Below are positions 3,471 to 60,625 of a stretch of DNA of 64,000 nt, piece by piece; positions within the stretch are counted from its first letter, which is position 1, and each line of letters starts with the position of its first letter. The stretch comes from a virus: IMG/VR virus record IMGVR_UViG_3300021233_000290, positions 1 through 64,000 of that record, one strand, 5' to 3'. The position numbers and the translations under genes were made by a program. The notes under the pieces are model-generated. The model had not been told where the DNA came from and ran no database searches. It saw only the letters and a list, made by a program, of their open reading frames with translations.

Positions 3471-3477
3471 TATTTAG
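3471..3477 (-). promoter_or_regulatory. Late promoter box for the 564-aa gene
   Basis: CTAAATA on the minus strand, then the 5-nt spacer AGAGT, then ATG at 3465. Nine bases separate it from the divergent box at 3487. Confidence 0.65.
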
Positions 3478-3486
3478 TGGAAATAA

Positions 3487-3493
3487 CTAAATA
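3487..3493 (+). promoter_or_regulatory. Late promoter box for the 37-aa gene
   Basis: CTAAATA, spacer AAATA (5 nt), ATG at 3499. Its presence is the main reason for accepting such a short gene. Confidence 0.65.
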
Positions 3494-3498
3494 AAATA

Positions 3499-3612
3499 AT
3501 GATTCCCTTTTCTCAATTCTTTCTAATCAAAGAAGCTTTCGATACTGTATCAGAATTTATGTTAAATCCTGAGCATTCCGATAAAACATACTCCTATCAT
3601 AATATTAAATAA
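3499..3612 (+). CDS. 37-residue late peptide with capsid-targeting-like N-terminus
   Basis: A short gene of 37 codons. Its product begins MIPFSQFFLIKEAFDTVSEF and has no recognised domain. Two things support it: a perfect CTAAATA box with the standard 5-nt spacer, and an N-terminus resembling T4 capsid-targeting sequences (aromatic residues, then I-K-E followed by A, matching the prohead-protease consensus). Its TAA stop lies inside the TTAAATA box of the next gene, so the two are arranged in tandem with individual promoters. It could be a free packaged peptide or a detached targeting leader of the downstream protein. Coding status is inferred, with no homologue recalled. Confidence 0.5.
   Translation: MIPFSQFFLIKEAFDTVSEFMLNPEHSDKTYSYHNIK
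3605..3611 (+). promoter_or_regulatory. Late promoter box for the ADP-ribosyltransferase-like gene
   Basis: TTAAATA with a longer than usual 7-nt spacer before ATG 3619. It overlaps the stop codon of the 37-aa gene. Confidence 0.5.
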
Positions 3613-3618
3613 AATTAT

Positions 3619-5355: not shown

Positions 5356-5445
5356 TGGACAGAATTTGATAAAGAATATCAAAGGCTTCTTAAAGATTTG
5401 ACATTACCTAAAGATGTGTTAAGGTATTCCCATGCCAAATCCTAA
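5356..5445 (+). other. In-frame extension after the amber stop, with a third FDKEY motif
   Basis: Directly after the TAG at 5353-5355 the same frame stays open for 29 codons (starting WTEFDKEYQRLLKDLTLPKD) to a TAA at 5443-5445. It holds a third near-identical copy of the GAATTTGATAAAGAATATC segment found at 3622 and, almost exactly, at 4885. It has no start codon of its own and runs into the next gene. It is either the remnant of a longer protein or a stop-codon readthrough tail. Confidence 0.45.
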
Positions 5446-6115
5446 TGTTTCTTCTAATATCGCCATTTTCACGGCAACCAAACGCAATGATTGGCAATTT
5501 CCCTTGACTAAAACTGCGATAGAATTCGATCTGGATGATTTCATGCACACCAGATTGAATAACACTCAAGGACTTCCCAAGGTCTATAATGAATGTCTTG
5601 ACCTAGCGATCAAAGAGAAATTTGATTACGTAATGTTCATTCACGATGATGTTCATCTGGAACATGACCCTCGCCCAAAGCTGGAGAAGCTATTCCAAGA
5701 ATACGATATTGTCGGTGTGGCGGGATGTTCCAAGGCTGAAATCAAGTCTCCTGCACTCTGGCATCTGATGGGTGGAGGATTTGGTGGTGGCAATCTACAT
5801 GGCGCGGTGGCTCATGGTAACGCTGATAAGAAGCATATGACGAGCTTTGGTGTATATCCCCATCGTGTGGTGATGATCGATGGTGTTTTCATGGCATTTA
5901 ATCGAAAGGCGATTGAGACGGTGAGATTTGATGAGGATTGTCCATCAGGCTTTCATTTTTACGATCTTTGCATGTGTGCTAGAGCTTTAGAAAAAGGCTT
6001 GAAAATCGGTGTTGGTGATGTTATGATTACTCACGAATCACCAGGACTGAGAGAATTTACGGAGGACTGGAAATCTGGTGAGTCTTATTATCTCTCCAAA
6101 TATGGAAACGCATGA
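5432..6115 (+). CDS. Glycosyltransferase-like protein (GT2-type, StrF-like)
   Basis: 227 aa, resembling the family-2-like glycosyltransferases that include StrF. The N-terminal strand IAIFTATKR is followed by the conserved GLPKVYNECLDLA helix, the metal-binding FDYVMFIHDDVHL (DDV in place of DxD), a Gly-rich loop (GGGFGGG), VVMIDGVFMAFNRKA, and a C-terminal FHFYDLCMCARALEKG with the acceptor-side Asp. It would transfer a sugar from a nucleotide donor to an unknown acceptor, perhaps modified DNA or a virion protein. The gene looks less AT-rich than its left neighbour, more like gp41 behind it, with which it overlaps by ATGA. Start at the first ATG after the amber-tail region. Confidence 0.7.
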   Translation: MPNPNVSSNIAIFTATKRNDWQFPLTKTAIEFDLDDFMHTRLNNTQGLPKVYNECLDLAIKEKFDYVMFIHDDVHLEHDPRPKLEKLFQEYDIVGVAGCSKAEIKSPALWHLMGGGFGGGNLHGAVAHGNADKKHMTSFGVYPHRVVMIDGVFMAFNRKAIETVRFDEDCPSGFHFYDLCMCARALEKGLKIGVGDVMITHESPGLREFTEDWKSGESYYLSKYGNA

Positions 6116-7428: not shown

Positions 7429-7462
7429 CATAATCGATTGATACTGTAGTGTAATACACAAT

Positions 7463-11836: not shown

Positions 11837-12298
11837 ATGAGTAATATTCCCGAAGAAATCGAAGCAATGGCATTTTTGATTGGTCAATCCAAACAGATGG
11901 ATGATCTGTGGGTTGATAGACCTGACACATTAGTGACAGATACCTCAACATTGAAAAGAGGTATGAGTGATTATATCCAACAACAGAGACGGATACAACA
12001 ACCGCAAGTCGCGTTACCAACACATCCTCTCCAATATCCACAAGTTCCACAACCACCCATTGTTCCAATTCCTAATTATGTCCCACCACAGGAATTACCC
12101 CAAGTCCAGCAAAAAGTAGATGATGGACAATTGGAACTGAATTTCGAACCAACTAAAGTGGATGAAATTATTATTTTGTTGAAAGAAATTTCTACAAAAT
12201 TGACAAAACAGAATAATATGCTAGAAAAGCATTATGCAAATAAATCTAAACAGAAAACCCTTTCAGAACCTGTTACTAAGCTTATCCCAAATAAGTGA
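11837..12298 (+). CDS. Pro/Gln-rich protein of unknown function
   Basis: 153 aa. A short helical N-terminus (EEIEAMAFLIGQSKQMDDLW) leads into a disordered Pro/Gln-rich linker (residues about 50-95) and a C-terminal heptad-like helix (VDEIIILLKEISTKLTKQNN). No family recognised. The linker between two interaction helices suggests a tether or adaptor in the replication block. Its last 65 nt overlap the clamp gene in another frame. Confidence 0.7.
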   Translation: MSNIPEEIEAMAFLIGQSKQMDDLWVDRPDTLVTDTSTLKRGMSDYIQQQRRIQQPQVALPTHPLQYPQVPQPPIVPIPNYVPPQELPQVQQKVDDGQLELNFEPTKVDEIIILLKEISTKLTKQNNMLEKHYANKSKQKTLSEPVTKLIPNK

Positions 12299-13150: not shown

Positions 13151-13394
13151 CGAAATTACAGGGAAAGTTATTAAAACATCACCACAGAATTCAGCATATT
13201 CTGATGGATGGGATAAAGTATTTGCTAAAAAATCAGCACACGAGTGGCTCAAAACCATGCCAGATGTCCGAATGATGGACCCTGATGGCTGGAGACAGAA
13301 TGATGGTGTCGATATGGATACACCTATCAAATGGTCTGATTTTCAAAAACGTTTGAATATGTCAACAATTCTTTTTAAGAATCTCAATGTATAA
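13140..13394 (+). CDS. Small protein of unknown function
   Basis: 84 aa, not recognised. It has a Trp-rich middle (HEWLKTMPDVRMMDPDGWR) and a conserved-looking end (TPIKWSDFQKRLNMSTI). No signal peptide or membrane segment. Tightly packed between its neighbours by overlapping ends, so it belongs to the same operon. Confidence 0.6.
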   Translation: MAINEITGKVIKTSPQNSAYSDGWDKVFAKKSAHEWLKTMPDVRMMDPDGWRQNDGVDMDTPIKWSDFQKRLNMSTILFKNLNV

Positions 13395-13785
13395 CTTATT
13401 CTTAGATGATGTTCGTAGACCCAAAGAAGCATTTCTTTATGGGGAAGGTAAAATGTTATGTGAATACTCTGGTGTTCCCAATGGTTGTTGGGAGATCGTG
13501 AGGAATTATGATGATTTCGTGAAAATTCTCAACGAAAAAGGACTACCGAGAGCAATTTCTTTTGATTGTGATTTGGCGAAAGAACATGTGCAACATTACA
13601 TGTCAGAAAGTTTAATAACAGGTGTGTATGAGTGGGAAAATTTTCAAAATAAATGTGGTATCCACTGTGCAAAATATTTGAAATCTATATTGTCCGATAA
13701 AGATGATGTTAGAATATTCATTCACTCTGCTAATGAGTTAGGCAGGGGGATAATTAAAAATATACTATCGCAATGGATATTTTAA
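13387..13785 (+). CDS. Cyclic-phosphate-processing receiver-domain protein (cPPRD-like)
   Basis: 132 aa. NLFLDDVRRPKEA at the N-terminus, WEIVRNYDDFVKIL, PRAISFDCDLAKEH and a C-terminal CGIHCAKYLKS ... IHSANELGRGI match the receiver-like family predicted to process cyclic phosphates and often linked to RNA repair. The acidic DD near the start and the DCD strand resemble the metal pocket of receiver domains. Its biochemical activity is a published prediction of the family, not proven here. It ends next to an antisense homing endonuclease (4-nt overlap), with a HAD phosphatase gene beyond it. Confidence 0.7.
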   Translation: MYNLFLDDVRRPKEAFLYGEGKMLCEYSGVPNGCWEIVRNYDDFVKILNEKGLPRAISFDCDLAKEHVQHYMSESLITGVYEWENFQNKCGIHCAKYLKSILSDKDDVRIFIHSANELGRGIIKNILSQWIF

Positions 13786-14780: not shown

Positions 14781-15305
14781 ATGATAAAAAGAATATTTAT
14801 TGATTGCGACGAGACACTTATATTCGGGGATAGACAATTAAGAGAGAAAAAAGATTGTGATTTCACTATCGTATTGGAATACGGTGGTATTTACGATGTT
14901 AAAGTAAGACCTTCAGCGCACGATGTTATCAATTTAGCACGTAATTACGTTGGAATCGACAATGTTTATCTATTAACAATTGCCACTAGAGAATATGCAA
15001 CAGAAATTTCTGTTCAAGCTAATTTCGGATTCACCTCCGATAATATAATCTCTAGAGAGGACATCAACGAAGCAAGATTTAATACGATGTATGGTGGATA
15101 TCAATACGGAACGAATGTGAATCTGTCTCATTCTGATAATGTGTTAATCGACAATCTCCCAGTAAGAGAGAATGGACAAAAAATGATATACATCGGTATT
15201 AAACCAGATCGTTATCTGAACATCACGCCTTATTATGGATTCGATTTAAAAGATGATGATTTCTATTCATCAGTGGAAAATTTTCTCTTGCAAAAATCCA
15301 AATGA
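14781..15305 (+). CDS. HAD superfamily phosphatase-like protein
   Basis: 174 aa. The first HAD motif is clear: IFIDCDETL with D8 nucleophile and D10. VYLLTIATREYA provides the second motif Thr, and NVLIDNLPVRENG the acidic metal motif. Members remove phosphate from nucleotides, nucleic acid ends or sugars. The order cPPRD-like, homing endonuclease, HAD and the later RlaP-like nucleotidyltransferase suggest an RNA-end function, but dNMP or sugar-phosphate substrates are equally possible. A short AT-rich leader precedes it; the stop overlaps the next ATG. Confidence 0.75.
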   Translation: MIKRIFIDCDETLIFGDRQLREKKDCDFTIVLEYGGIYDVKVRPSAHDVINLARNYVGIDNVYLLTIATREYATEISVQANFGFTSDNIISREDINEARFNTMYGGYQYGTNVNLSHSDNVLIDNLPVRENGQKMIYIGIKPDRYLNITPYYGFDLKDDDFYSSVENFLLQKSK

Positions 15306-15646
15306 CAGTAAATATTTCTATGAAGAATAATATCACCACGCAGGGTTATTTTGTTAAAAGATTGAGAGATTCTGGTTTTGTTGTTGTGAAAATGTTTGAC
15401 CAATATGGTCAACACGATCCTCGTAAATGGACTGTGATGGTAGATCCGAGTAATACATCTGTCATCATTACTTGTTATCAAAATAAAGAATTCAAAGGTG
15501 ATGTGTTATTTGAAATCAATGATGGTGGTAATCGATTTATTAAAAATTTTAATCTGAAAACCCAAAGTATGGAGATTATTATCACCACTTTGATTGAAAA
15601 AGGTATTGGTCAGATCGAAAACGATTCAGTCTATAAAAAAGACTAA
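15302..15646 (+). CDS. Unknown protein, 114 aa
   Basis: Not recognised. A mixed alpha/beta protein with GYFVKRLRDSGFVVVKMFD near the start and a strand-rich middle (KWTVMVDPSNTSVIITCY). A second possible start is ATG 15320 (MKNNITTQ). No targeting signal. Translationally coupled to the HAD gene by ATGA. Confidence 0.6.
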   Translation: MTVNISMKNNITTQGYFVKRLRDSGFVVVKMFDQYGQHDPRKWTVMVDPSNTSVIITCYQNKEFKGDVLFEINDGGNRFIKNFNLKTQSMEIIITTLIEKGIGQIENDSVYKKD

Positions 15647-15649
15647 ATA
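15643..15649 (+). promoter_or_regulatory. Late promoter box before the 103-aa gene
   Basis: CTAAATA, spacer TTATT (5 nt), ATG 15655. It sits among replication genes. It overlaps the stop of the previous gene. Confidence 0.5.
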
Positions 15650-17241: not shown

Positions 17242-17676
17242 ATGAGTGAAATGGAAAAATATTTATTTGTAGGTGGAAAAGCGGATGGTCACATGATTAT
17301 GTTGAATCGTAACCATCACCATCACCAAATTCCTTACCTAGATGCAGAATTTAGCGGTGAGTATCACGAACATACTCCAGTTAAAGCGGAATTGTATCGG
17401 AAAATTAAATGGGAGAGCGGAGACAGAGAAATATTTGAATTTTTCGCATTAGAGTCTCTTTCAAACTCTGAGGTTATGAGTATTATATTGAATAATTATA
17501 AACCAAAGCAAGAGGTTAGAGAAAATAAATTAATCAGTGAAATGAAATTTTTATTAAACGAGTGTATATCAATGTTGAATTTTGCTCATCCTTATATAAC
17601 TATATGGTCAGATAGTAATATGATATCAAAACATATTTCAAAAATTCACAAGTTTCTAAATTTGAATAAAAACTAG
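17242..17676 (+). CDS. Unknown phage protein with a GGKADG N-terminus
   Basis: 144 aa. The first 65 residues (EKYLFVGGKADGHMI, then RKIKWESGDREIFEFFAL) look like the small phage proteins beginning 'FVGGPADG'; the rest is helical (KFLLNECISMLNFAHPY). A natural His run (HHHH) occurs at about residue 26. No function known. Starts one base after the primase stop. Confidence 0.6.
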   Translation: MSEMEKYLFVGGKADGHMIMLNRNHHHHQIPYLDAEFSGEYHEHTPVKAELYRKIKWESGDREIFEFFALESLSNSEVMSIILNNYKPKQEVRENKLISEMKFLLNECISMLNFAHPYITIWSDSNMISKHISKIHKFLNLNKN

Positions 17677-18354: not shown

Positions 18355-18361
18355 TATTTAG
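18355..18361 (-). promoter_or_regulatory. Late promoter box for the 138-aa gene
   Basis: CTAAATA on the minus strand, spacer AAGAT (5 nt), ATG 18349. Confidence 0.65.
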
Positions 18362-18399
18362 TGGAATTGGTGTTAAAAAACTAGAATATATTAGTAATT

Positions 18400-18621: not shown

Positions 18622-18628
18622 TTAAATA
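18622..18628 (+). promoter_or_regulatory. Late promoter box for the 117-aa gene
   Basis: TTAAATA, spacer ATAAC, ATG 18634. The box lies within a short inverted repeat TGTTA-AATAA-TAACA. Confidence 0.65.
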
Positions 18629-19202: not shown

Positions 19203-19601
19203 ATGACCAAGAAAAAGAAAAATCGACAAAAATGGCTTACTGACAAGCTTAAAGGTGACTGGAAAGACAAGGATTATATCATTGAAATTGTTTTATTTGA
19301 GTCTCTAATTCATTATGTGGAAAAGGAAAATGATCTTATTTTCAACGAAAAAGTTTGGGCGGACGAGCTTGACAAAGGCCATATCGATCAAGATACGATT
19401 GATAAAATCAGAAAACGATATGAAGAGTTGAGACAAGCATATCTTTATTTGAAAAATGAACGTCCTGAGCTAGAACGTCAAGTTGATAATTGGGAAGGGG
19501 AGAACATTAAAGAATTTGATGCGTTGGAAAAATCTCTATCGTCTAAAGATACGGAGATTATGAACACAATTGTGAAGTATAGAGAATACATGTGGACATG
19601 A
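19203..19601 (+). CDS. Unknown helical protein, 132 aa
   Basis: Begins MTKKKKNRQKWLTDKLKGDW, a basic N-terminus, then DYIIEIVLFESLIHYVEKEN and a long charged helix (IRKRYEELRQAYLYLKNERP). An upstream ATG at 19146 would overlap the previous gene by 55 nt and is not preferred. Similar 'KWLTxKLK' proteins occur in T4-like phages; the role is unknown. Confidence 0.65.
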   Translation: MTKKKKNRQKWLTDKLKGDWKDKDYIIEIVLFESLIHYVEKENDLIFNEKVWADELDKGHIDQDTIDKIRKRYEELRQAYLYLKNERPELERQVDNWEGENIKEFDALEKSLSSKDTEIMNTIVKYREYMWT

Positions 19602-24997: not shown

Positions 24998-25004
24998 TAT
25001 TTAT
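24998..25004 (-). promoter_or_regulatory. Late promoter box for the collar-type gene
   Basis: ATAAATA on the minus strand, spacer ATAAC (5 nt), ATG 24992. Confidence 0.6.
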
Positions 25005-26776
25005 TCATTAGTGATCAAATTAGCAATCAATTTTTCTTGTATTTCAACTATTAGAGAAAATATCCTTTGCATGGTGACAGTATTAACACTCTCATTACCA
25101 TTAATTCTTAAATTATTCAAATCAAATTCGATTTGATTGATTCTGTTTAACAAAACATCATCATTTTTTATGATGTAGCAATTAGTAGCTTTGGTGTAAA
25201 GTGTCAACATATCTTTAGTTATATTGAAAAGTTCTTTATTGAACAGAATACCAAACGAATCGTTGCTACATTTTAACCCATTGTAGTATTTTGACATACT
25301 CTTATCAATAGCTGAATAGAAAGTATCTTGAATATCGTGTTTCAGTGCATACAATCTACCTGAATTGTGTAACAAATTATAATTTTTAACCCCTTTTGAT
25401 ATTTCTTTGAAATTTATATTCGTGAATAAATTAGAATCCTCCACATTCCATTTGATCGTATTAGTATTTATTTTTATAAATGCTTCCCCAAATTTCAATC
25501 TAGGTGGATATTTCAAACCAAATTCTCTAAAAGATGCTGCTGTATTAGTGGGGTTAGATATGAATCTGGATTCTACTTTATTTCTTGTTGATAAAAAGAT
25601 AATATTTGAATCAAATGATGAAAATTTTAATGTGTAAACATCAGACTGTTTAACATTGTTTATCGGATAATTGACTATAGTGTTATCAACATCATTTGGA
25701 TCGAAAAAACACATTTGATAATTACCGACATTCCCATGTAAAATACCAACCAAATCGTCAACATCCCTGATATCAATGGAAATAACATTAGCTATATTAT
25801 AGCTGGATAATTTAAAATTGACTAAAGGTTCAGTCTCATTCTTTTTAAACAAAGTTAAAACGTTACTTTCTAAAGTAGTTCTCATTTTGTCGCCAAATTT
25901 CATGAAATCTGTCTCATTTTCATTTTGATTGTAGTATTTGGTATTATAAACACCTTTGGTTTTTGAAAATTCTCGTTTCAAATTCCATTTCAATCCGATA
26001 GTATCCACCGATTTAATTTGAATTGTGTCTGATATTACAAAATTATCACATTCGATAAAATTCAATCCTTCATAAATGTATATCAAATCATTGATCGTCA
26101 CATAAATTTTGTTATCAAATTCATCGTAATATATATCGTATACTTCTCTACCGAAACCTAAAGGCGTTATTTCATATATCAATTCGTCAGTATTATCAAA
26201 TGAACCTTTAACTATGATCAAATCGTTACCTGTTGAACATAGATATTTGAACGATTGGTCAGATTTAACCACGAAATCACCATATTTAATTTCTCCTAAA
26301 AATGCCCATTTCTCCGAATTTTGAAATCGCTCAACACCGATTGAAACTTGTTTCCCAGTCATCACATCGGTTGTTTTTTCATCTAATTCACTGGATGATA
26401 TTGCGTAGTAATGGCAATTATTTTCGTCGAAATCGACAATCTGCGGGTTCTGTAATATCAGAGATTTGAAAACGACCAAATTGTTTCTATTTATGATTTG
26501 GAAAATCTTATCCAACTCGGTTTTATTCAAAACATCGAATGAATTTGAGAAATAAGGCTGAACACCTTCAATTTTTTCAAATTGATTGTCGAATTCTAAA
26601 TTGTTTAGATAAAATTCTGATATGAAATTTTGCTTCGGTGTTAAAATTTCAGATTTCCCCGTTTGATATTGCTTACCAGTATAAGGATTACCATCAGAAA
26701 TCGTGAAAAAACCCTGATAATCTATCCCATTCAGCGTGAATGCTTCTCCAGCAGTGTATTTATAATAAGAAATCAT
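25001..26776 (-). CDS. Large virion structural protein, unknown
   Basis: 591 aa. The N-terminus YYKYTAGEAFTLNGIDYQGF, with FFTISDGNPYTGKQY behind it, looks like a conserved baseplate or tail attachment domain; the rest is beta-rich with a possible propeller-like section (DIYYDEFDNKIYVTINDLIY). The C-terminal end is helical (LNNLRINGNESVNT). No enzymatic motif. Its ATG overlaps the preceding stop, so it is in the gp6-gp25 operon and is probably a baseplate or tail protein. Confidence 0.65.
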   Translation of the reverse strand: MISYYKYTAGEAFTLNGIDYQGFFTISDGNPYTGKQYQTGKSEILTPKQNFISEFYLNNLEFDNQFEKIEGVQPYFSNSFDVLNKTELDKIFQIINRNNLVVFKSLILQNPQIVDFDENNCHYYAISSSELDEKTTDVMTGKQVSIGVERFQNSEKWAFLGEIKYGDFVVKSDQSFKYLCSTGNDLIIVKGSFDNTDELIYEITPLGFGREVYDIYYDEFDNKIYVTINDLIYIYEGLNFIECDNFVISDTIQIKSVDTIGLKWNLKREFSKTKGVYNTKYYNQNENETDFMKFGDKMRTTLESNVLTLFKKNETEPLVNFKLSSYNIANVISIDIRDVDDLVGILHGNVGNYQMCFFDPNDVDNTIVNYPINNVKQSDVYTLKFSSFDSNIIFLSTRNKVESRFISNPTNTAASFREFGLKYPPRLKFGEAFIKINTNTIKWNVEDSNLFTNINFKEISKGVKNYNLLHNSGRLYALKHDIQDTFYSAIDKSMSKYYNGLKCSNDSFGILFNKELFNITKDMLTLYTKATNCYIIKNDDVLLNRINQIEFDLNNLRINGNESVNTVTMQRIFSLIVEIQEKLIANLITNE

Positions 26777-28967: not shown

Positions 28968-28974
28968 TATTTAA
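28968..28974 (-). promoter_or_regulatory. Late promoter box for the 729-aa gene
   Basis: TTAAATA on the minus strand, spacer ATAAA (5 nt), start codon GTG 28962. Confidence 0.6.
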
Positions 28975-36360: not shown

Positions 36361-36367
36361 TATTTAG
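36361..36367 (-). promoter_or_regulatory. Late promoter box for gp25 operon
   Basis: CTAAATA on the minus strand, spacer ATTGT (5 nt), ATG 36355. Seven bases from the divergent box at 36375. Confidence 0.7.
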
Positions 36368-36374
36368 GTAAATG

Positions 36375-36381
36375 TTAAATA
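36375..36381 (+). promoter_or_regulatory. Late promoter box for the repeat fibre gene
   Basis: TTAAATA, spacer ATAAC, ATG 36387, within the short inverted repeat TGTTA-AATAA-TAACA. Confidence 0.7.
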
Positions 36382-39505: not shown

Positions 39506-40390
39506 ATGCAAGCTTTATTTCATATTACGGGTGGTTTGGGTAAACACGTTGCCGCAACAAGCGTAATTAATTCTTATAAGTTCAAATTTCCCGACGAAGA
39601 GATTATCGTATCTAGTGCTTATCCTGATGTTTTTGAGAAAAATCCAAATGTTAAAGAATCTTTAGATATCAATAATCTTCAATATTTTTATAAAAATTAC
39701 ATAAACAAAAAAGATGTAAAAATCTTTGCTCAAGAACCATATAGAGAGACCTCGCACATCTCGAAACAAAAACATCTCATTCAAACGTGGTGTGAAATGG
39801 TTGGGACTGAACAATATTTCCAACCATCGTTAAACATTGGTTTCAGGGAACATGAAATTATCTCCAGACAATTTATTAATGAGAAGCCGATTTTAATATT
39901 CCAACCTTTTGGTGGTATTAATTCCAATTTACCTTATAATTGGGCGAGAGATATTCACCCTTCGGTTGCACAATCTATTGTTAATATGTTAGCTGACAAA
40001 TATAATATTCTCTACATTTGCAACCCATATCACCCAGCTCTCAATAATTGCCACAGGATCGATAACAGATTATCATTCGGAGAGTTAGTTTCTTTAGTCG
40101 GTATTTCTGATAAGAGATTTTTAATTGATTCATCAATCCAACATATCGCTGCTGCGATAGGAAAACCATCTATCGTGGTTTGGAATGTGACATCACCAGA
40201 AATATTTGGTTATAATATGCATGATAATATTACCAGTCCTGTTGATTATAGTGATGGTCACAGAAAATCCTATTTATTCGATTATGAAATTGCTGGAATA
40301 CCAGCAGAATGCCCAGTTTCAAATTATATGAACATGTTTGATATGGATCAAATTCTCGATTCGATAAAATATCTTTTAGATGATAAATAA
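39506..40390 (+). CDS. Family 9 (heptosyltransferase-like) glycosyltransferase
   Basis: 294 aa. ALFHITGGLGKHVAATSVIN, then FPDEEIIVSSAYPDVFEKNP is the N-terminal Rossmann half of GT9/heptosyltransferases (the GGLGK loop), and LIFQPFGGINSNLPYNWARD with FLIDSSIQHIAAAIGKPSIV is the donor half, including the D-S-x-x-H-x-A-A motif. It would transfer a sugar in the host cytoplasm. The longer frame from 39473 includes the promoter and is not used. Followed directly by a structural gene. Together with the sulfotransferase it forms a surface-modification pair. Confidence 0.75.
   Translation: MQALFHITGGLGKHVAATSVINSYKFKFPDEEIIVSSAYPDVFEKNPNVKESLDINNLQYFYKNYINKKDVKIFAQEPYRETSHISKQKHLIQTWCEMVGTEQYFQPSLNIGFREHEIISRQFINEKPILIFQPFGGINSNLPYNWARDIHPSVAQSIVNMLADKYNILYICNPYHPALNNCHRIDNRLSFGELVSLVGISDKRFLIDSSIQHIAAAIGKPSIVVWNVTSPEIFGYNMHDNITSPVDYSDGHRKSYLFDYEIAGIPAECPVSNYMNMFDMDQILDSIKYLLDDK
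40383..40389 (+). promoter_or_regulatory. Late promoter box for the 126-aa gene
   Basis: ATAAATA, spacer ATAAT (5 nt), ATG 40395. It lies over the end of the glycosyltransferase gene. Confidence 0.6.
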
Positions 40391-40778: not shown

Positions 40779-41834
40779 ATGAAAAAACAACCAACATTAG
40801 GGGATATTTACGGTAGCATGTTGAAAAGTGTTAAGGTGGTAAATGAAAGCGCGGAGGAAAATATTAATAAATCTAAGAAAAAAATTAACACGCCTAAAAA
40901 TGCGTTTTCTGATAAAAATTCTCCGATTAAAGGTGGACCGACATCTGCTGATGGATTCCATAAAGCTCTGAATGATGATTATTGTGGATGTGAAGAAGAA
41001 GATGAAGAACGCTTTGATAGAAAATATGATAGAATCAATGAATTGGAAAAACAAATAAAAGATCCAAATATTTCAGAGAAAAAGAAAGAAGGTTTGGAGA
41101 TGGCATTGAAAAAATTAAAATCTGATTTGCAAAGAGAAGAAGCAGAAGAAAATATTGTGGAAGAATCTAAAAAAATTGCGAGGGAAAGACTAAATACTTT
41201 TATGATGAAAAAATCTACATTTGATAAATTGTTTGAATCTGTGATGGGTGGTAACTTCGATCAACAAGAAGACGCTCAAGAAGATGCTGCTTTGGGTCTC
41301 AGCGATGCACCTACTGATGACGAATTTGGTGATGACGAATTTGGTGATGACGAAGGTGAGCAAATCACAGTTACTTTGGATCGTGCAGTTGCACAACAAT
41401 TATGTGATATTCTTCAAGCTGCTATGGGCGGTGGTGAAGAAGACTTCGGTGATGAAGGCGACGATCTCGATTTCGAAGTTGGAGATGATGAAATGGAAGA
41501 TGAAGAAAGTGACTTGTATGACGATGAAGAGGAATACGATGAAGAGGAATACGATGAAGACGAAGAAAGCACTTTCCCCACTGACAAAGTTGGTAATGAT
41601 GGAACCATCGGTGCTAAAAATTCCAAAGACGGTTTACACCGATTGCAAGGTAAATCCAACAAAGTAGGTGGTCGTCCACAACCAAAAGGTCAAGGAACCA
41701 AAGTAACTGGAACCACTGATAAAGTTGGTAACGATGGTGATTACGGTCATGCTATCCATAGCGGAAAACAACCAGACATGGGTAAACAAAATAAAGTGTC
41801 CGATTTGCGTCCAGCAGAAGATTACTTCCGCTAA
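40779..41834 (+). CDS. Acidic, repeat-containing late protein (candidate core or packaged protein)
   Basis: 351 aa. A basic helical first half has two prohead-protease-like sites (KVVNES at about residue 18, and STFDKLFESVMGG at about 150). A very acidic second half (DDEFGDDEFGDDEGEQITV, then EEYDEEEYDEDEE) is made of short direct repeats, and the end has two copies of DKVGNDG plus GK-rich repeats. This pattern is like scaffold or internal head proteins. No alignment with T4 gp22 can be claimed. A strong terminator follows the gene. Confidence 0.65.
   Translation: MKKQPTLGDIYGSMLKSVKVVNESAEENINKSKKKINTPKNAFSDKNSPIKGGPTSADGFHKALNDDYCGCEEEDEERFDRKYDRINELEKQIKDPNISEKKKEGLEMALKKLKSDLQREEAEENIVEESKKIARERLNTFMMKKSTFDKLFESVMGGNFDQQEDAQEDAALGLSDAPTDDEFGDDEFGDDEGEQITVTLDRAVAQQLCDILQAAMGGGEEDFGDEGDDLDFEVGDDEMEDEESDLYDDEEEYDEEEYDEDEESTFPTDKVGNDGTIGAKNSKDGLHRLQGKSNKVGGRPQPKGQGTKVTGTTDKVGNDGDYGHAIHSGKQPDMGKQNKVSDLRPAEDYFR
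41316..41357 (+). repeat. 15-bp tandem repeat encoding DDEFG
   Basis: GATGACGAATTTGGT is repeated twice plus a partial third copy, in frame. Confidence 0.8.
41523..41565 (+). repeat. 15-bp tandem repeat encoding DEEEY
   Basis: GATGAAGAGGAATAC occurs twice with a partial third copy, in frame in the same gene. Confidence 0.8.
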
Positions 41835-41897: not shown

Positions 41898-41904
41898 TTA
41901 AATA
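41898..41904 (+). promoter_or_regulatory. Late promoter box for the neck gene operon
   Basis: TTAAATA, spacer GTAAT (5 nt), ATG 41910. It lies at the end of the terminator. Confidence 0.7.
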
Positions 41905-41909: not shown

Positions 41910-42764
41910 ATGCAGTCCTTTCTTGAATTTTTCAAAAATCATATTTTGAAAGAGAACACATCTTTAGATGATGTGATATATGTAGTAGCGGATATAAAAA
42001 CAAAAGAAGTTGTTTGGAGAGGTCCATACTCTAAGAGAAAATACGGTAAAAGAGTTAGAGATAAAAGAAATATAGAATACGGTGCTGAAAGATATGTTTT
42101 CAGAAAAGAAGAAACATCGCCCATTTTAGAATACCGCCATAAAGATTCTTTTGGTGGTATCAAACAATCATTACATGCGAATAATAAAAAGGGTGGAAAT
42201 ATCACTCGTGATCCTTTGAAGAGAAAAATACCATGGGTTGTAGGACCTTATAAAAAAATTAGAAATGCTGGAGAAGTCTTAATTGGTGATGATTTAATAA
42301 AAGAATTGGGTTCAATGGGTGGTGTGGAATTTGAAGATGGTAAGGAAATTAAAAGAAAAAATTCTAATCAAATTTTGAAATTGTTTACCAATCTCCATGG
42401 TCAACAGTGTGGAAAAATCGTAGAAATTAAAGAATCGGTGCAGGGTGTATTACTCACTAGAGAACTCGCGGATAAAATCGCTACAAATTTAATCGAGGGT
42501 GGTATTACGAGAAAAGGAACGATGAGAATGACTGCTGAGATTTGTGGTGTTCCTGAATCTGCTGTGAGAAGCGTGAAATCTTATTTATTGAACGGTGTCA
42601 AAGGTCATAGCAATCCTGATATGATGATCGACAGAAATGCTGATATGATTATTAAAGGTTGGGATGATGATAAGGTGGGTGTTGGTAAAGTGTTTAAGGG
42701 TGAAATTCCCGATGACATGGCAAAAGGTGAAGAAATATATCGGAAAATGAAAGGAGGATATTGA
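41910..42764 (+). CDS. Late protein before gp14, unknown (gene 13 position)
   Basis: 284 aa. MQSFLEFFKNHILKENTSLD resembles capsid-targeting leaders, with L-K-E followed by N. Then come a basic strand region (EVVWRGPYSKRKYGKRVRDK) and a helical end. T4 gene 13 precedes gene 14, so this is at the place of gp13, but the sequence does not obviously match and the N-terminus looks more like a packaged protein. Its stop is just ahead of the next ATG. No membrane or enzyme motif. Confidence 0.6.
   Translation: MQSFLEFFKNHILKENTSLDDVIYVVADIKTKEVVWRGPYSKRKYGKRVRDKRNIEYGAERYVFRKEETSPILEYRHKDSFGGIKQSLHANNKKGGNITRDPLKRKIPWVVGPYKKIRNAGEVLIGDDLIKELGSMGGVEFEDGKEIKRKNSNQILKLFTNLHGQQCGKIVEIKESVQGVLLTRELADKIATNLIEGGITRKGTMRMTAEICGVPESAVRSVKSYLLNGVKGHSNPDMMIDRNADMIIKGWDDDKVGVGKVFKGEIPDDMAKGEEIYRKMKGGY
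42751..42757 (+). promoter_or_regulatory. Strong Shine-Dalgarno site for gp14
   Basis: AAGGAGG with 9 nt to ATG 42767. It decides the start against the in-frame TTG at 42761. It contrasts with the first genes of late units, which have no room for such a site. Confidence 0.8.
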
Positions 42765-43638: not shown

Positions 43639-45411
43639 ATGGCAGCTAAAAAGAGAAAACAGGAGTATATGGGTAATCCCAATCTCCCAACTGCTGATGC
43701 AGTCTTTGAATACACACCAGAGATGGTGATGGAGATTGAAAAATCCAAAGAATCTCTATTATATTTTGCATCCAATTACTTTTACATCATCGATCCCGAT
43801 GAAGGTAAGAAAGTTATTCCTTTGTTTGATTATCAAGAGAGATTATTAAAAGCTTTTGATGAACACAGATTTAATATCGTTTTGTCCTCTAGACAGAGCG
43901 GTAAGACTACAATTGCAACTGCTTTAGCTTTACATGAGGCATGTTTCAAAGACCATAAAAACATCGTAATCGTTGCTAACAAAGAGGAGACTGCTAAGAA
44001 CATCTTCAAGAGAGTTCGACTCGCTTATTTGGAATTACCGAATTGGTTAAAGCCAGGTATTAAAAAATGGGGTGATACTGGACTTGAATTGGCAAACGGT
44101 AGTAGTATCGAAATTTCAACCACTACTGGTAACGCTGCAAGGGGTAAAACTATTAACCTTCTCCTTCTCGATGAGTTAGCGTTCATTGAACCAGAAAGCA
44201 TCGTTGAAGATTTCTGGCGATCCGTATACCCCACAATTTCTCGTGCTAAAACATCTAGGATTCTCATCACATCAACTCCAAATGGTGTTGGTAATCTATT
44301 CCACCGTTTGTATGTCGGTGCGACTAAAAAAGAAAACAGATTCCACTATGAGAGAATTGACTGGTGGGAAGTTCCAGGTCGTGACGAAGAGTGGAAACAA
44401 GAACAAATCAAAGACTTAGGCTCTTACGAAGCATTCAATCAGGAATACGGCAACGAATTCTTAGACAATAGTCAACAGTCGATTGATGAAGCATTATTTG
44501 ATAGGTTGAAATCGCAATGTTGTGAACCGAAACATGTTCTGAAAGATGGTCATTATAAAATTTGGGAAGAATATGATCAAGAAAAAATATATGCTATCGG
44601 TGGAGACGTGGCAGAAGGTGTCGGATTGGATGCGTCTGTTTTAGAAATCTTTGATATTACAAATCCAAAAGAAATCATTCAAGTTGGGGAATACGTGAAC
44701 AATAAAATTGGACCATCCGAATTTACAAACATGGTTGCTGAAATTTGTGGTCATTGGGGTAATCCTTTATTATTGATTGAAAGAAACAATCAAGGATCAG
44801 GTGTTTGTGATCGAATGGCTAATGAGTTCATGTATCAAAATCTCGTTTCTTGGGGTGCTAAAGAAGCACACAAGAATAAACAGAATGGTATGATTTCCCA
44901 TATCAATACGAAATACAAAGCAGTCCTCAATATGCGTTATTTTGTCAATGAAGCGCAATCCGTGACTTTCCGTTCTCTGGATTGTCTGAAAGAATTCAAA
45001 ACATTCATTCGATATCCTAATGGATCATGGAAAGCAAAAGCAGGGGAACATGACGATAGAGTTATGGCAACTGTCTGGATGCTCATGTCATTATACAATG
45101 ATATCACGGAATTATACTTTGATATTAAGGAAAAAGACGATTGCGACCATCCTCTGGTAATCGAACCTTTTGACATGGGTCTAATCAAATATAAATCAGC
45201 GACTTCTATTTATACTAACGAAGAAGTGGCAAAAATTGAACACTCTAATCTAGCCCCCATGCTTTTTGGTGGTGAAAGTTCTATGGCAGCTAGTGATATG
45301 GCTGAATTAGAAGCTCAGGGTTGGTTCATTCCTGAAGGTGCTATCTACTCTAATCCTGATAGGAACATTTCTTATGAACAATGGGATGCGATGAATAAAT
45401 ATTTCGGTTGA
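43639..45411 (+). CDS. 17: Terminase large subunit gp17-like
   Basis: 590 aa (T4 gp17 is 610). The packaging motor ATPase and headful nuclease. Walker A SRQSGKTT at 84-91, Walker B LLLLDE with D178-E179, the coupling motif TSTPNG, and a C-terminal RNase H-like nuclease domain starting AIGGDVAEG with D323. LERNNQG-type nuclease residues appear as LLIERNNQGSGVCDR. No gp16 small subunit is recognisable upstream. Starts directly after the gp14 stop. No shine-Dalgarno apparent. Confidence 0.95.
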   Translation: MAAKKRKQEYMGNPNLPTADAVFEYTPEMVMEIEKSKESLLYFASNYFYIIDPDEGKKVIPLFDYQERLLKAFDEHRFNIVLSSRQSGKTTIATALALHEACFKDHKNIVIVANKEETAKNIFKRVRLAYLELPNWLKPGIKKWGDTGLELANGSSIEISTTTGNAARGKTINLLLLDELAFIEPESIVEDFWRSVYPTISRAKTSRILITSTPNGVGNLFHRLYVGATKKENRFHYERIDWWEVPGRDEEWKQEQIKDLGSYEAFNQEYGNEFLDNSQQSIDEALFDRLKSQCCEPKHVLKDGHYKIWEEYDQEKIYAIGGDVAEGVGLDASVLEIFDITNPKEIIQVGEYVNNKIGPSEFTNMVAEICGHWGNPLLLIERNNQGSGVCDRMANEFMYQNLVSWGAKEAHKNKQNGMISHINTKYKAVLNMRYFVNEAQSVTFRSLDCLKEFKTFIRYPNGSWKAKAGEHDDRVMATVWMLMSLYNDITELYFDIKEKDDCDHPLVIEPFDMGLIKYKSATSIYTNEEVAKIEHSNLAPMLFGGESSMAASDMAELEAQGWFIPEGAIYSNPDRNISYEQWDAMNKYFG

Positions 45412-45441
45412 CATTGGAGAATTTTGTGATATTTTATTATC

Positions 45442-46043: not shown

Positions 46044-46050
46044 TTAAATA
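46044..46050 (+). promoter_or_regulatory. Late promoter box for the first tube-like gene
   Basis: TTAAATA with a 6-nt spacer, ATG 46057. CATTAAA-TATT-TTTAATG is a perfect 7-bp inverted repeat over it (46042-46059). Confidence 0.55.
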
Positions 46051-46693: not shown

Positions 46694-46700
46694 TTAAATA
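46694..46700 (+). promoter_or_regulatory. Late promoter box for the sheath gene
   Basis: TTAAATA, spacer ATTGT (5 nt), ATG 46706. Confidence 0.7.
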
Positions 46701-49050: not shown

Positions 49051-49057
49051 ATAAATA
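49051..49057 (+). promoter_or_regulatory. Late promoter box for gp19
   Basis: ATAAATA, spacer ATAAT (5 nt), ATG 49063. Confidence 0.65.
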
Positions 49058-49658: not shown

Positions 49659-49665
49659 GTAAATA
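49659..49665 (+). promoter_or_regulatory. Late promoter box for the third tube-like gene
   Basis: GTAAATA with a 6-nt spacer, ATG 49672. It lies in the loop of TGTAAT-AGTAAAT-ATTACA. Confidence 0.5.
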
Positions 49666-50274: not shown

Positions 50275-50972
50275 TAACATTTCAAGATTTGAAGAGTTGT
50301 AATGAAAATGGTGAAGATTTTTTATTACAATATTTTAATAGTTTCGAAGGTGAAAACATTTATCACAAATTTGTCAATCTGATAGGAGATTGGGAGAGAA
50401 ACGTATCATACACTATAAACCTTAAAAACGAAGATAAAAATATAAAATTATCTTTGCAATATGTATTGAATGAATTGGAAAAATATTCAGATGATATGGT
50501 TTTTTATGAAAAAGATGGCGTGGAAGTTAGTATTAACACCCCACCTATTTTCAAAAAAGATTGTAACATATTATCAATATCCGATTTTATTTATGATCTA
50601 AAATATTTGGGGAGAACAATAAAATTTTCAGAATTGAATGATTATGAGAAAAATATAATTCTTCAGAACCTACCTGCGAAATTATACAATGAATTAGCAC
50701 TTTTTGTTACCAACATAAAAACAAAAACAGTAATAATCAATAATCAATCTCTATCTAATTTAGAATTTAATTTTCTATCTCAACAACCCTATGAGATGCT
50801 GAAAGGATTATTTTTATCTTTTGATAAGGATTACTTCAGAGACATCATATATATTTTATCTAAAAAAATAGATGGTAATATATTGATGAAATCTAGTCTT
50901 ATGGATATTGAATATTACATAGAAAAAATGAAAAATGATAATAATTCGAATATTGATGCGAATTTGTATTGA
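50271..50972 (+). CDS. Baseplate hub/chaperone candidate, unknown
   Basis: 233 aa. Helical, with MITFQDLKSCNENGEDFLLQ and SELNDYEKNIILQNLPAKLY. The 'xEKxxIxxNLPxxxxxxI' segment resembles the T4 baseplate hub assembly (gp26/gp51-like) proteins and also its neighbour (IKDRILVVENLPISVNKSI), so the two may be related. No function claimed beyond hub assembly, by position between tube and replication genes. Confidence 0.5.
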   Translation: MITFQDLKSCNENGEDFLLQYFNSFEGENIYHKFVNLIGDWERNVSYTINLKNEDKNIKLSLQYVLNELEKYSDDMVFYEKDGVEVSINTPPIFKKDCNILSISDFIYDLKYLGRTIKFSELNDYEKNIILQNLPAKLYNELALFVTNIKTKTVIINNQSLSNLEFNFLSQQPYEMLKGLFLSFDKDYFRDIIYILSKKIDGNILMKSSLMDIEYYIEKMKNDNNSNIDANLY

Positions 50973-50988
50973 CAATATGGTTTAACAG

Positions 50989-50995
50989 GTAAATA
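50989..50995 (+). promoter_or_regulatory. Late promoter box inside a palindrome
   Basis: GTAAATA, spacer CCTGC (5 nt), ATG 51001, inside CAGGTA-AA-TACCTG (50986-50999). Confidence 0.6.
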
Positions 50996-51000
50996 CCTGC

Positions 51001-51732
51001 ATGGAAAACGATATTAAGAAGTTTTTAGAATCTATTCAGGAATTAAAAGAAGAAAAGTTTGATGTTAATCAAATTACTACTGGTAATAAAGTTAAATGTA
51101 AAAAAATTTCATTCAAGCAACAGAAAAACATCATTTCCACCATCACCGATGGTGCATCAGGTGTAATGAAGTTTCAAAAAATTCTGAATGACATCATTAT
51201 GGAAAACACAGAGACCAATGATTGGTTGGTTGTTGATAAAATTCCAGTCATTGTTAAAATGAGAATTGAGAGCTTGGGTAATCTTTTGAAGAACAAAGAT
51301 ACTGAAATTGATCTCAATCAACTTAAATTACTTGAGAAATTTAATACACCTACAACCACCAAAATTAAAGGTAGCGTGGATGTAAATTTGAGAATTCCCA
51401 CATTATCAGAAGAGAATAAAGTTCTCAATTACGCTGTTGATTTTCTTAAAAATAGTAAAGAATCGGACATTGGTAAAGATATTACAAATATCTTTACTTT
51501 TGAAATTGTTAAATACATCGAATCGGTTGTTTTTAATGGGCAAGTTCTAAATTTTAGTGATATGCCTATCAAGGATAGAATTTTGGTTGTTGAAAATCTA
51601 CCAATCAGCGTGAACAAATCTATCGTTGAATACATTGAAACGATTAAGAACGAAGAAAACGAACAATTAAAATTGGTGGTAGATGGGGAAACTAAAGTAA
51701 TCGAAATCGATGTAACATTTTTTGATAATTAA
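51001..51732 (+). CDS. 26: Baseplate hub protein gp26-like
   Basis: 243 aa (T4 gp26 is 208). FKQQKNIISTITDGASGVMK with NDIIMENT and VVDKIPVIVKMRIESLGNLL follows the pattern of the T4-type hub protein family (start of the cell's 'KQQK' motif, then a VDK..I.V.LR segment). The last third has FSDMPIKDRILVVENLPISV. T4 gp26 is a minor hub assembly component. Late box 5 nt before ATG. Confidence 0.55.
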   Translation: MENDIKKFLESIQELKEEKFDVNQITTGNKVKCKKISFKQQKNIISTITDGASGVMKFQKILNDIIMENTETNDWLVVDKIPVIVKMRIESLGNLLKNKDTEIDLNQLKLLEKFNTPTTTKIKGSVDVNLRIPTLSEENKVLNYAVDFLKNSKESDIGKDITNIFTFEIVKYIESVVFNGQVLNFSDMPIKDRILVVENLPISVNKSIVEYIETIKNEENEQLKLVVDGETKVIEIDVTFFDN

Positions 51733-54942: not shown

Positions 54943-55203
54943 TTATTTATCTTTTTTATTCTTTTTTTCCCAACTTACTCTCTTAGAGCTTTTCTTTTTA
55001 TACATTCTACCTTTAATACTTTTACAATCTGCCTTTGTAGCTCTACATGCAGGGTAAGAACCTTTTGATGTATCTTTTCTACCACAAGGTCCGCCTGTCT
55101 TACAGTTGATCCAACCTTTGAATTTTTTACCTTTCTTATCTACATGAGGAGCGAACCAATCATGTAAACTTTCCAGTATTTCTCTTTGAGACATCTGTTC
55201 CAT
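54943..55203 (-). CDS. Small basic Cys-rich late protein
   Basis: 86 aa. N-terminal helix MEQMSQREILESLHDWF (I-L-E followed by S). Then GWINCKTGGPCGRKDTSKGS, YPACRATKADCKSIKG form a module with five Cys, met in phages and some giant viruses, followed by a Lys-rich tail (KKKSSKRVSWEKKNKKDK). Probable zinc-binding, DNA-associated protein. ATG 55203 overlaps the preceding stop (TGATG); a GTG at 55206 is possible. No late box. Confidence 0.65.
   Translation of the reverse strand: MEQMSQREILESLHDWFAPHVDKKGKKFKGWINCKTGGPCGRKDTSKGSYPACRATKADCKSIKGRMYKKKSSKRVSWEKKNKKDK
54944..54950 (-). promoter_or_regulatory. Late promoter box for the 158-aa gene
   Basis: ATAAATA on the minus strand, spacer ATATC (5 nt), ATG 54938. 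Confidence 0.6.
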
Positions 55204-55546: not shown

Positions 55547-55553
55547 TATTTTT
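55547..55553 (-). promoter_or_regulatory. Degenerate late promoter box
   Basis: AAAAATA on the minus strand, spacer ATAAT (5 nt), ATG 55541. It departs from consensus in two positions. Confidence 0.35.
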
Positions 55554-55554
55554 A

Positions 55555-56472: not shown

Positions 56473-56477
56473 AATGT

Positions 56478-56484
56478 TATTTAG
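56478..56484 (-). promoter_or_regulatory. Late promoter box for the 305-aa gene
   Basis: CTAAATA on the minus strand, spacer ACATT (5 nt), ATG 56472. Confidence 0.65.
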
Positions 56485-56493
56485 TCAAAAATG

Positions 56494-56500
56494 CTAAATA
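56494..56500 (+). promoter_or_regulatory. Late promoter box for the 713-aa gene
   Basis: CTAAATA, spacer ATAAT (5 nt), ATG 56506; nine bases from the divergent box. Confidence 0.7.
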
Positions 56501-56505
56501 ATAAT

Positions 56506-58647: not shown

Positions 58648-58655
58648 TCGCCTGA

Positions 58656-58662
58656 TTAAATA
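58656..58662 (+). promoter_or_regulatory. Late promoter box for the tape-measure gene
   Basis: TTAAATA, spacer ATTAG (5 nt), start GTG 58668. It is inside an imperfect palindrome CCTGATTA-AA-TAATTAGG. Confidence 0.6.
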
Positions 58663-58667
58663 ATTAG

Positions 58668-60617
58668 GTGAACACGGATCAAATATTATTAGATTTACTT
58701 GACCACCTAAGAAAAACAGATGAACAAAAAGGTGTTCAGGGTGAAACATTGTCTGAGAAGAATATAATTCAAAATGACAACGCCGATCCTAATAAAAAAA
58801 TCTCTTCAACTCTATCTTCAGTTGAAGAGAGAAGAACTATTTCGATAGCTAAAATCTTAGCTAAAACTTTTTTCGAAGTAAAGAAAAAAAATACCAAAGA
58901 CACTGCCTTAAAAACTTCCTTTCAAAGAATAACACCTTCTTCTAAAACACCTTCTTCTAAAATAGAAAAAGTTAAAAATTTTGTTGATGAGAAAAAGGAA
59001 CAATCCATATGGTGGTTACTTTTCGGTACTATAGGAACTCTTTTAACTGGATTAATAACCGATGGACCTTTCAAAGGTATTTTGAAAATTTTATCAAAAA
59101 TGGGTTTTAAAATTCTTGGTGGTTTTACGAAAATAATTTCAAAAATTTTCGGTAAAATTACAAATTTTGGTAAAATCTTTAAAGGTGGTAAGATAGCTGA
59201 TTTTTTTGGTGATATTGTTAAAAATTTTAGCGATGATTTCCTCAAAGGTTTTAAATCTGTTGCTTCAAAACCTTTTAGTAATATTGGAAAAATTTTCAAA
59301 GGTGGTGGTATGCTTGCTAAAATGGGTAAATTTTTGAAACCATTACTTCCCGCATTGAAAAAAGCACCATTGTTGGGTAATATCATTTCCATAGGATTTG
59401 CAATTTCAAGATTCATGCAAGGGGATATAACTGGTGGTGTTATCGACACTTTGAGCGCATTGAGTGGATTATTATACCCTGTTGCTCCACCATTGGCTTA
59501 TGGTCTAGGTATTGGTCTTGATGTGTTGAATGCTTTTCTAGATGTGAAACAAGCATCTCCTGAAAATAAAGGAAAGGGTAAAGGACAAATTCTTTGGGAA
59601 ATGACAAAATCATTGAGTTCTTACATATGGAAAAAATCTTATAATATTCCAATATTAGGTGGAGTTAGAAGATTTATGGATGCTTATGACATGTTCAAGT
59701 CTGGAAACATAGTAGGTGGTCTTAAAAAGATGGCAACTGGTATGATAGCTTTTACTGGTTTAGCACCTGTAGCAACTGGAATGGAAATGTTGGGAGATTT
59801 TTTAGTAGGTAAAACACCAGAGGAGAAAGCAAATAGTAAAATAAAAAGCTTATGGGGAATGACTAAATCATTGGGTTCTTACATATGGAAAAAATCTTAT
59901 AATATTCCAATATTAGGTGGAGTTAGAAGATTTATGGATGCTTATGATCTTTTTAAATCTGGAGATATCGTAGGTGGTCTTAAAAAGATGGGAACTGGTA
60001 TGATAGCTTTAACTGGTTTAGCACCTGTAGCAACTGGAATGGAAATGTTGGCTGGGATGTTTTCCAATAATGATAAAAAAGAAACTAAAATAAAACCAAA
60101 TACTTCTTGGATTAAAAATGTTAAAAAATTTATTAAAGGGAAAATGAGCGAATTACCATACATTTTGAGAAAACCTTTGGAATGGATGGGTATTTTAGAT
60201 GGTAATGGAGCGGAGAATGAAAAAAATCTCAAAATGTTAAGTTCCCCTAAAAATAAATCTGGTGAATTTGCAAATGGAAAAATTCCTGTTAAAAAACAAG
60301 ATATTCTTGTTAAAAAACAAGATATTAAAGTTACTAATGATAATCCTAAACCAATTGCTAATATATCAAATAATATTAAAGGTTTGGAAGAAATGACGGA
60401 TGTGAATTATGGACAATTAAAAGTTTTAGAAGAATTACGCAATATCAACGCTCAAACTTTGAAAGTGATAGCTGACATTTCTAGACAAAATGGTAAACCA
60501 CAAAATGTCAATATCCCAAATCCTACATCTTCCGATAGAATTTCTAAAGGTGGTAATCCAGTGAAAATGAAAATTAGTAGAGATGATTATGGATATTCAC
60601 CATATGCTTTAGTTTAA
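58668..60617 (+). CDS. 29: Tape-measure protein gp29-like, GTG start
   Basis: 649 aa (T4 gp29 is 590). The tape measure sets tail length and is expelled ahead of DNA. It has a helical N-terminus (QILLDLLDHLRKTDEQKGVQ), hydrophobic Gly-rich membrane-active parts (WWLLFGTIGTLLTGLITDGP), and a duplicated 86-residue segment (SYIWKKSYNIPILGGVRRFM, then GLAPVATGMEML). Position before gp48/54-like, gp53 and gp27 genes mirrors T4 29-48-54. No direct alignment with T4 gp29 is claimed. GTG is fixed by the promoter spacing; no ATG is near. Confidence 0.7.
   Translation: MNTDQILLDLLDHLRKTDEQKGVQGETLSEKNIIQNDNADPNKKISSTLSSVEERRTISIAKILAKTFFEVKKKNTKDTALKTSFQRITPSSKTPSSKIEKVKNFVDEKKEQSIWWLLFGTIGTLLTGLITDGPFKGILKILSKMGFKILGGFTKIISKIFGKITNFGKIFKGGKIADFFGDIVKNFSDDFLKGFKSVASKPFSNIGKIFKGGGMLAKMGKFLKPLLPALKKAPLLGNIISIGFAISRFMQGDITGGVIDTLSALSGLLYPVAPPLAYGLGIGLDVLNAFLDVKQASPENKGKGKGQILWEMTKSLSSYIWKKSYNIPILGGVRRFMDAYDMFKSGNIVGGLKKMATGMIAFTGLAPVATGMEMLGDFLVGKTPEEKANSKIKSLWGMTKSLGSYIWKKSYNIPILGGVRRFMDAYDLFKSGDIVGGLKKMGTGMIALTGLAPVATGMEMLAGMFSNNDKKETKIKPNTSWIKNVKKFIKGKMSELPYILRKPLEWMGILDGNGAENEKNLKMLSSPKNKSGEFANGKIPVKKQDILVKKQDIKVTNDNPKPIANISNNIKGLEEMTDVNYGQLKVLEELRNINAQTLKVIADISRQNGKPQNVNIPNPTSSDRISKGGNPVKMKISRDDYGYSPYALV
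59594..60051 (+). repeat. Direct duplication inside the tape-measure gene
   Basis: Two near-identical copies of about 200 bp (59594-59793 and 59852-60051), offset by exactly 258 bp or 86 codons, so the frame is kept. Few differences separate the copies, which points to a recent event. Confidence 0.9.
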
Positions 60618-60618
60618 G

Positions 60619-60625
60619 TTAAATA
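60619..60625 (+). promoter_or_regulatory. Possible late promoter box with longer spacer
   Basis: TTAAATA with 8 nt to ATG 60634, the longest spacer in the set. Confidence 0.45.

Follow-up and report, generated by a model that had tools for sequence, protein, structure and literature searches.

Results

In the present study, the window is the whole stretch of DNA that was analysed, namely the first 64 kb (64,000 nucleotides) of an IMG/VR contig of 81,016 bases (IMGVR_UViG_3300021233_000290). This 81-kb fragment is incomplete in comparison with its relatives of 150-207 kb. The genome is 66% A+T, and the start regions are richer still. From PHROG matches the window is assigned to the T4 superfamily, and matches to the core genes gp17, gp18, gp19, gp25, gp6, gp41, gp61, gp44, gp45, gp32 and UvsX all lie inside it. 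Among the structural and packaging genes, the terminase large subunit, the tail sheath, three tail-tube genes and the gp25- and gp6-like baseplate wedge genes were matched; among the replication genes, a DnaB-type helicase, a primase, a clamp loader, a sliding clamp, a single-strand binding protein and UvsX. The best-matching named phages, among the matches listed, have a sheath identity of about 40% or less and a terminase identity of 36% or less, while IMG/VR relatives are numerous, with 53-96% identity. The phage collection searched contains none of the clade. In the sheath tree the clade is separate from T4, the cyanophages and HTVC008M; the deep branches are long and uncertain. The Rfam scan gave no matches, and there are no tRNAs in the window, two relatives carrying many. 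In addition, an NLI-interacting-factor-like phosphatase domain and a cyclic-phosphate processing receiver domain were seen in the replication region (14781-15305 and 13387-13785).

The sequence-only reading had counted 27 pairs of a TAAATA box and a start codon, and all of them exist at the spacings it gave: 21 at 5 nt, four at 6 nt (starts 32017 and 35860 on the minus strand, 46057 and 49672 on the plus strand), one at 7 nt (3619, plus) and one at 8 nt (60634, plus). The GTG starts that it named, 28962 (minus) and 58668 (plus), both open genuine frames. TAAATA-N5-RTG occurs exactly 21 times in the window, and the TAAATA core stands ahead of the structural genes. Two of the 27 pairs are unlike ordinary gene starts, one opening a frame of 37 codons (3499, plus) and the other lying in frame inside a gene of 351 codons (41202, plus; gene 40779-41834). 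The late boxes are as follows.

3471..3476, minus strand: late box, spacer 5, start 3465, 564 aa
3488..3493, plus strand: late box, spacer 5, 37-codon frame from 3499; divergent to box 3471-3476
3606..3611, plus strand: late box, spacer 7, start 3619, 578 aa
15309..15314, plus strand: late box, spacer 5, start 15320
15644..15649, plus strand: late box, spacer 5, start 15655
18355..18360, minus strand: late box, spacer 5, start 18349
18623..18628, plus strand: late box, spacer 5, start 18634
24998..25003, minus strand: late box, spacer 5, start 24992, tail protein PHROG 5717
28968..28973, minus strand: late box, spacer 5, GTG start 28962, 729 aa
32024..32029, minus strand: late box, spacer 6, start 32017, 848 aa
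35867..35872, minus strand: late box, spacer 6, start 35860, baseplate wedge gp6-like
36361..36366, minus strand: late box, spacer 5, start 36355, baseplate wedge gp25-like; back to back with box 36376
36376..36381, plus strand: late box, spacer 5, start 36387, 762 aa
39495..39500, plus strand: late box, spacer 5, start 39506
40384..40389, plus strand: late box, spacer 5, start 40395
41191..41196, plus strand: late box, spacer 5, in-frame ATG 41202 inside gene 40779-41834
41899..41904, plus strand: late box, spacer 5, start 41910
46045..46050, plus strand: late box, spacer 6, start 46057, tail tube
46695..46700, plus strand: late box, spacer 5, start 46706, tail sheath gp18
49052..49057, plus strand: late box, spacer 5, start 49063, tail tube
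49660..49665, plus strand: late box, spacer 6, start 49672, tail tube
50990..50995, plus strand: late box, spacer 5, start 51001; predicted +1 common with an upstream TTGACA
54944..54949, minus strand: late box, spacer 5, start 54938
56478..56483, minus strand: late box, spacer 5, start 56472; back to back with box 56495
56495..56500, plus strand: late box, spacer 5, start 56506, 713 aa
58657..58662, plus strand: late box, spacer 5, GTG start 58668, 649 aa
60620..60625, plus strand: late box, spacer 8, start 60634

Two further box labels, for the gene 25001-26776 (TTG, spacer 8) and for the TTG at 62506, were rejected as probably due to chance, arising from automatic start-codon choice. At five places (18619, 36372, 40380, 46691 and 56491) an in-frame ATG or TTG lies 15 nt before the likely start, the sequence reading [AT]TG-N-TAAATA; this codon overlaps the box region, and longest-frame gene calling would add five residues to the protein.

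The 21 occurrences of TAAATA-N5-RTG were compared with 100 dinucleotide-preserving shuffles of the window, in which the mean was 3.72 +/- 1.94 and the maximum 9. In the full 81-kb contig there are 22 occurrences of TAAATA-N5-ATG and none of the reversed control pattern. Control hexamers gave no comparable peak; for ATAAAT there was a smaller one at 6 nt, which reflects the TAAATA box itself, read from one base earlier. The distances to the start, whose survey had been proposed together with the original observation, were counted in related loci from TAAATA to an ATG opening at least 60 codons, and they have a sharp lower limit of 5 nt throughout the clade. Over 102 related loci the counts were 1 at 4 nt, 522 at 5 nt, 118 at 6 nt, 58 at 7 nt, 37 at 8 nt and 29 at 9 nt, and then near background; in the 11 larger contigs they were 2, 394, 70, 27 and 17 at 4 to 8 nt, respectively. 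Upstream of the sheath gene, for which 45 distinct sequences with diverged flanks were available, the box lies at 5 nt in 37, at 6 nt in five and at 7 nt in two, never closer than 5 nt, and the remaining sequence has a variant box. Related phages had been suggested as a further check; the 5-nt spacing is clade-wide, while T4 and the cyanophages are without it: in T4, S-PM2, P-HM1, RM378, AG-345-F15, XG4 and RHph_I1_18, TAAATA is mostly 14-40 nt from the ATG. T4 and AG-345-F15, which do not have the 5-nt pattern, are comparably AT-rich.

T4 late promoters span -13 to -6 relative to the transcription start (PMC1524935). With the box at these positions, +1 is the sixth base after the box, so that a spacer of 5 nt places +1 on the start codon. 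The bases around this position are in agreement with an initiator. In the related loci, spacer-5 genes have C or T just ahead of the start codon in 94% of cases and G in 1%; in the 11 contigs, a pyrimidine at -1 was found in 346 of 395 spacer-5 genes against 487 of 804 internal cistrons (p = 2e-23). Boxed starts (n=399) are 343 ATG, 53 GTG and 3 TTG; common use of GTG with near absence of TTG is what one would expect from a requirement for a purine initiator at the first codon base. The pyrimidine-purine step (YR) of the spacer-5 genes has its +1 at box+6 in 345/395 and at box+5 in 9/395. With late spacers of 7 and 8 nt, YR was kept at box+6 in 18/27 and 12/18, respectively. The spacer of 6 nt is ambiguous, YR being at box+6 in 21/67 and at box+7 in 23/67; the initiator is not fixed at box+6 in this group, and leaders of 1 nt or a slip of one base are therefore possible there. 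The sharp fall from 5 to 4 nt fits a start codon that is unable to precede +1. Furthermore, the back-to-back divergent boxes leave no space for other promoters between the genes. Both marks of TA-led leaderless genes were found, the lack of a Shine-Dalgarno sequence and a -10 element some 10-12 nt ahead of the start codon. The proposal that T4-type late promoters start transcription at the start codon and are selected phage-wide was supported by every available sequence test.

The leaderless layout had been predicted for late mRNAs. It is seen beyond the late genes as well, in two other promoter classes. An early/middle element was found by k-mer enrichment upstream of genes without a late box. 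This class reads TTAAAAACTA-N3-TAnAAT-N5-Y-ATG, with +1 predicted on the start codon and the end of TAnAAT 6 nt before the ATG. AAAACTA is 15 nt from the start codon in 182 cases and 18 nt in 34. When lineage variants are included in the counts, YR is exactly at the start codon in 242 of 245 genes of the 15-nt class. For the 18-nt class, 44 of 50 genes keep it at element+16, and leaders of 3 nt are predicted there. Variants at the same 15-nt distance are AAACACTA in two relatives and AAAACCA in one; in early and tRNA regions, TTAAAAACTA drifts between lineages with its distance to the start codon kept. The other class is of the sigma70 type, TTGACA-N16-TAnnnT-N6-ATG, again with +1 predicted on the start codon. 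The distance from TTGACA to the ATG is 26-29 nt in 104 cases and never 25 nt, and the -10-like hexamer that follows TTGACA most often ends 6 nt before the ATG (48 versus 9 in shuffles). In the window these classes are represented by the following sites.

5398..5403, plus strand: TTGACA-N16-TAAGGT-N6-ATG, sigma70-type, predicted +1 on start codon 5432
12200..12205, plus strand: TTGACA-N16-TAGAAA-N6-ATG, ahead of the sliding-clamp (gp45-like) gene 12234
17669..17675, plus strand: AAAACTA early/middle element, 15 nt before start codon 17691
18377..18383, plus strand: AAAACTA element, 16 nt before GTG 18400
45408..45413, plus strand: TTGACA, 28 nt before start codon 45442
50969..50974, plus strand: TTGACA (-35 type) upstream of late box 50990, composite early/late promoter

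In the composite promoter (50969-51001), the +1 predicted from TTGACA and that predicted from TAAATA coincide on the ATG, and several relatives are alike in this. As to a -35-like element, the late class itself shows no more than a slight A/T preference between -29 and -25 (0.3-0.4 bit). Of the 102 genes in the contig, 17 belong to no class among the three and do not adjoin an upstream gene.

Shine-Dalgarno 5-mers were not enriched next to any of the promoters: 2/516 in the late class (4.0 by the null), 1/322 in the early class (3.6) and 1/115 in the sigma70-type class (2.8). In adjacent internal cistrons they are slightly above chance, with 40/804 against 27.9 by shuffling. Internal cistrons had been said to carry such a site; the example of gp14 (gene at 42761) is real but an exception, and the claim does not hold in general. 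Their junctions are ATGA overlaps in 257 cases, TAATG in 79 and gaps of 1-4 nt in 233, so that most overlap or abut the preceding stop, which fits coupling. Phage-encoded bS21, IF3 or IF1 as a cause of leaderless initiation was rejected, as none of them was found in the 15 contigs.

The box and ATG at 41191-41204, in frame within 40779-41834, were kept in 10 of 10 related genomes examined, down to 34% protein identity. This conservation shows a unit under selection that is independent of gene-start calling. The gene thus probably yields a second, shorter late product, predicted to be about 210 aa long, from an acidic protein of unknown function.

Of 15 related contigs, 10 carry a gp55 homologue with the conserved YYVNSKEF...SYFNRIAWNAF motifs (E 3e-11 to 7e-17); the contig that is nearest in the sheath tree is one of them. 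In the 81-kb fragment, which is itself shorter than most gp55-bearing relatives, no gp55 homologue was found; a gp45-like clamp gene is present in the window. The full TATAAATA, with T or A at -13 and A at -12, does not describe the boxes of the clade: -13 is A in 46% and G in 31%, and -12 is C in 36%, T in 32% and A in 25%. Bacteroidota-type promoters (TAnnTTTG) were considered as a host clue and rejected, as they are not enriched, and the canonical form of TTGACA speaks against a host sigma of the Bacteroidota type. One distant sheath relative (32%) is on a 375-kb contig that is binned as a Paludibacteraceae MAG and is probably a large phage. It was the one match obtained when the host was sought through genome contigs, and it gives no host assignment.

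Discussion

We consider it very probable that the window carries late promoters of the gp55 type with +1 on the start codon, that their mRNAs are leaderless, and that two other promoter classes obey the same rule. We infer both the transcription start at these positions and the mode of ribosome initiation from sequence. According to this reading, late genes would be transcribed from gp55-type promoters, NTAAATA at -12 to -6, at a fixed position that would make the first base of the start codon the first to be transcribed. A minority of late mRNAs would have leaders of 1-4 nt. With +1 on the start codon, the mRNAs would be leaderless and their translation would involve no Shine-Dalgarno interaction; initiation would most likely proceed through direct recognition of an AUG or GUG at the 5' end, and downstream cistrons would be reached through stop-start coupling. 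The early/middle and the host sigma70-type classes would follow the same +1-on-start rule.

Three other explanations were weighed. Transcription could start 1-5 nt before most start codons, the mRNAs being near-leaderless and the 5-nt spacing a very short leader. Spacers of 6 to 9 nt in 122 of 517 boxed genes with spacers of 5-9 nt, and the 3-nt leader predicted for the 18-nt early class, are what this would lead one to expect, but the YR counts of the spacer-5 genes favour box+6 over box+5 by far, those of the 15-nt early class fall exactly on the start codon, and the near absence of 4-nt spacers beside the many of 5 nt is in keeping with a start codon that never precedes +1. We regard this explanation as improbable. 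It is also quite improbable that TAAATA is an AU-rich translation signal near the start, with the true promoters further upstream and ordinary leaders. Shine-Dalgarno sequences at or near chance in the clade, as in Bacteroidota with their start regions free of them, and the distant sheath relative in the Paludibacteraceae MAG contig are in its favour. The hexamer, however, is the core of the T4 late promoter and relatives carry gp55; two unrelated promoter sequences share the promoter-to-start geometry; the initiator dinucleotide is tied to the promoter and not to the ATG; the back-to-back divergent boxes leave other promoters no space; and Bacteroidota-type TAnnTTTG promoters are not enriched. 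Finally, that the spacing arises by chance from AT-rich start regions and from gene calling, which the base composition could suggest and which had been named among the refuting outcomes, is excluded for practical purposes by the shuffles (21 against 3.7 expected), the reversed control (0 against 22), the control hexamers, a spacing common to 102 loci and its lack in the comparably AT-rich T4 and AG-345-F15.

The leaderless reading with +1 on the start codon may be extended, tentatively and with considerable doubt, to a lytic lineage that has lost leaders and ribosome-binding sites in nearly all of its units and in every temporal class, with promoter position alone defining the start codons. 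If this were true, the lineage could favour its own mRNAs by altering host initiation, for example away from the leadered, IF3-dependent mode. On the main reading, with +1 on the start codon in all three classes, gene starts in the clade would be readable from the promoters, if it is true; longest-frame callers begin 15 nt early in several genes. Furthermore, a phage with hardly any Shine-Dalgarno sequences and a leaderless programme would be a natural system for the question of leaderless initiation in bacteria.

Clamp-activated transcription has its model in the late genes of T4, whose mRNAs have leaders. The clade is like the gp55/gp33/gp45-dependent late promoters of T4 (TATAAATA) in the TAAATA core, in the expected +1 six bases past the last A, in the gp55 homologue of relatives, in the boxes of structural genes on both strands and in mostly having no late -35 hexamer. 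It is unlike T4 in that the boxes of T4 are mostly 14-40 nt from the ATG, which leaves space for a leader, whereas in the clade the start codon is at the predicted +1. The purine followed by C or T at -13/-12 is nearer to the Aeh1 form (a/gC) than to TA, and Aeh1, of the same superfamily, deviates from TATAAATA at these positions likewise.

Among other phages, most middle and late mRNAs of the large Thermus phage phiYS40 have been reported to be leaderless (review PMC3594737). Its host, Thermus, has many leaderless genes; the clade differs by its T4-type late box and by extending the predicted layout to all three promoter classes. In bacteria, both for TA-led leaderless genes (Zheng 2011) and for the -10-adjacent ORFs of Deinococcus-Thermus (2025), a -10 element some 10-12 nt ahead of the start codon has been taken as the mark of a leaderless gene (PMC3160421, PMC12340547). 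Those genes use the host sigma; in the clade the elements are a phage late box and an early/middle element, and the distance differs between the two.

No account of T4-type late promoters fused to start codons, or of all temporal classes being so, came up in the open-access literature searched. A likeness is seen in the cultured Pelagibacter phage HTVC008M (NC_020484.1), which has 14 occurrences of TAAATA-N5-ATG against 4 of the reversed control; 12 of the 14 precede open frames of 50 codons or more, several of them annotated structural genes, and the genes at 19456, 31132 and 75830 are examples of such sites. Unlike the clade, HTVC008M has a mixed layout, with many other boxes 16-38 nt from the ATG and longer leaders predicted for those genes, and has no AAAACTA or TTGACA class at a fixed distance; its sheath is on the cyanophage/T4 side of the tree. 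Standard methods found no middle or late promoters in pelagimyophages (PMC7029224), and promoter-start fusion, if true, may bear on this. Overall, the present clade would represent a T4 promoter type fused to the start codon across a widespread environmental group, which departs from the textbook layout of T4 genes.
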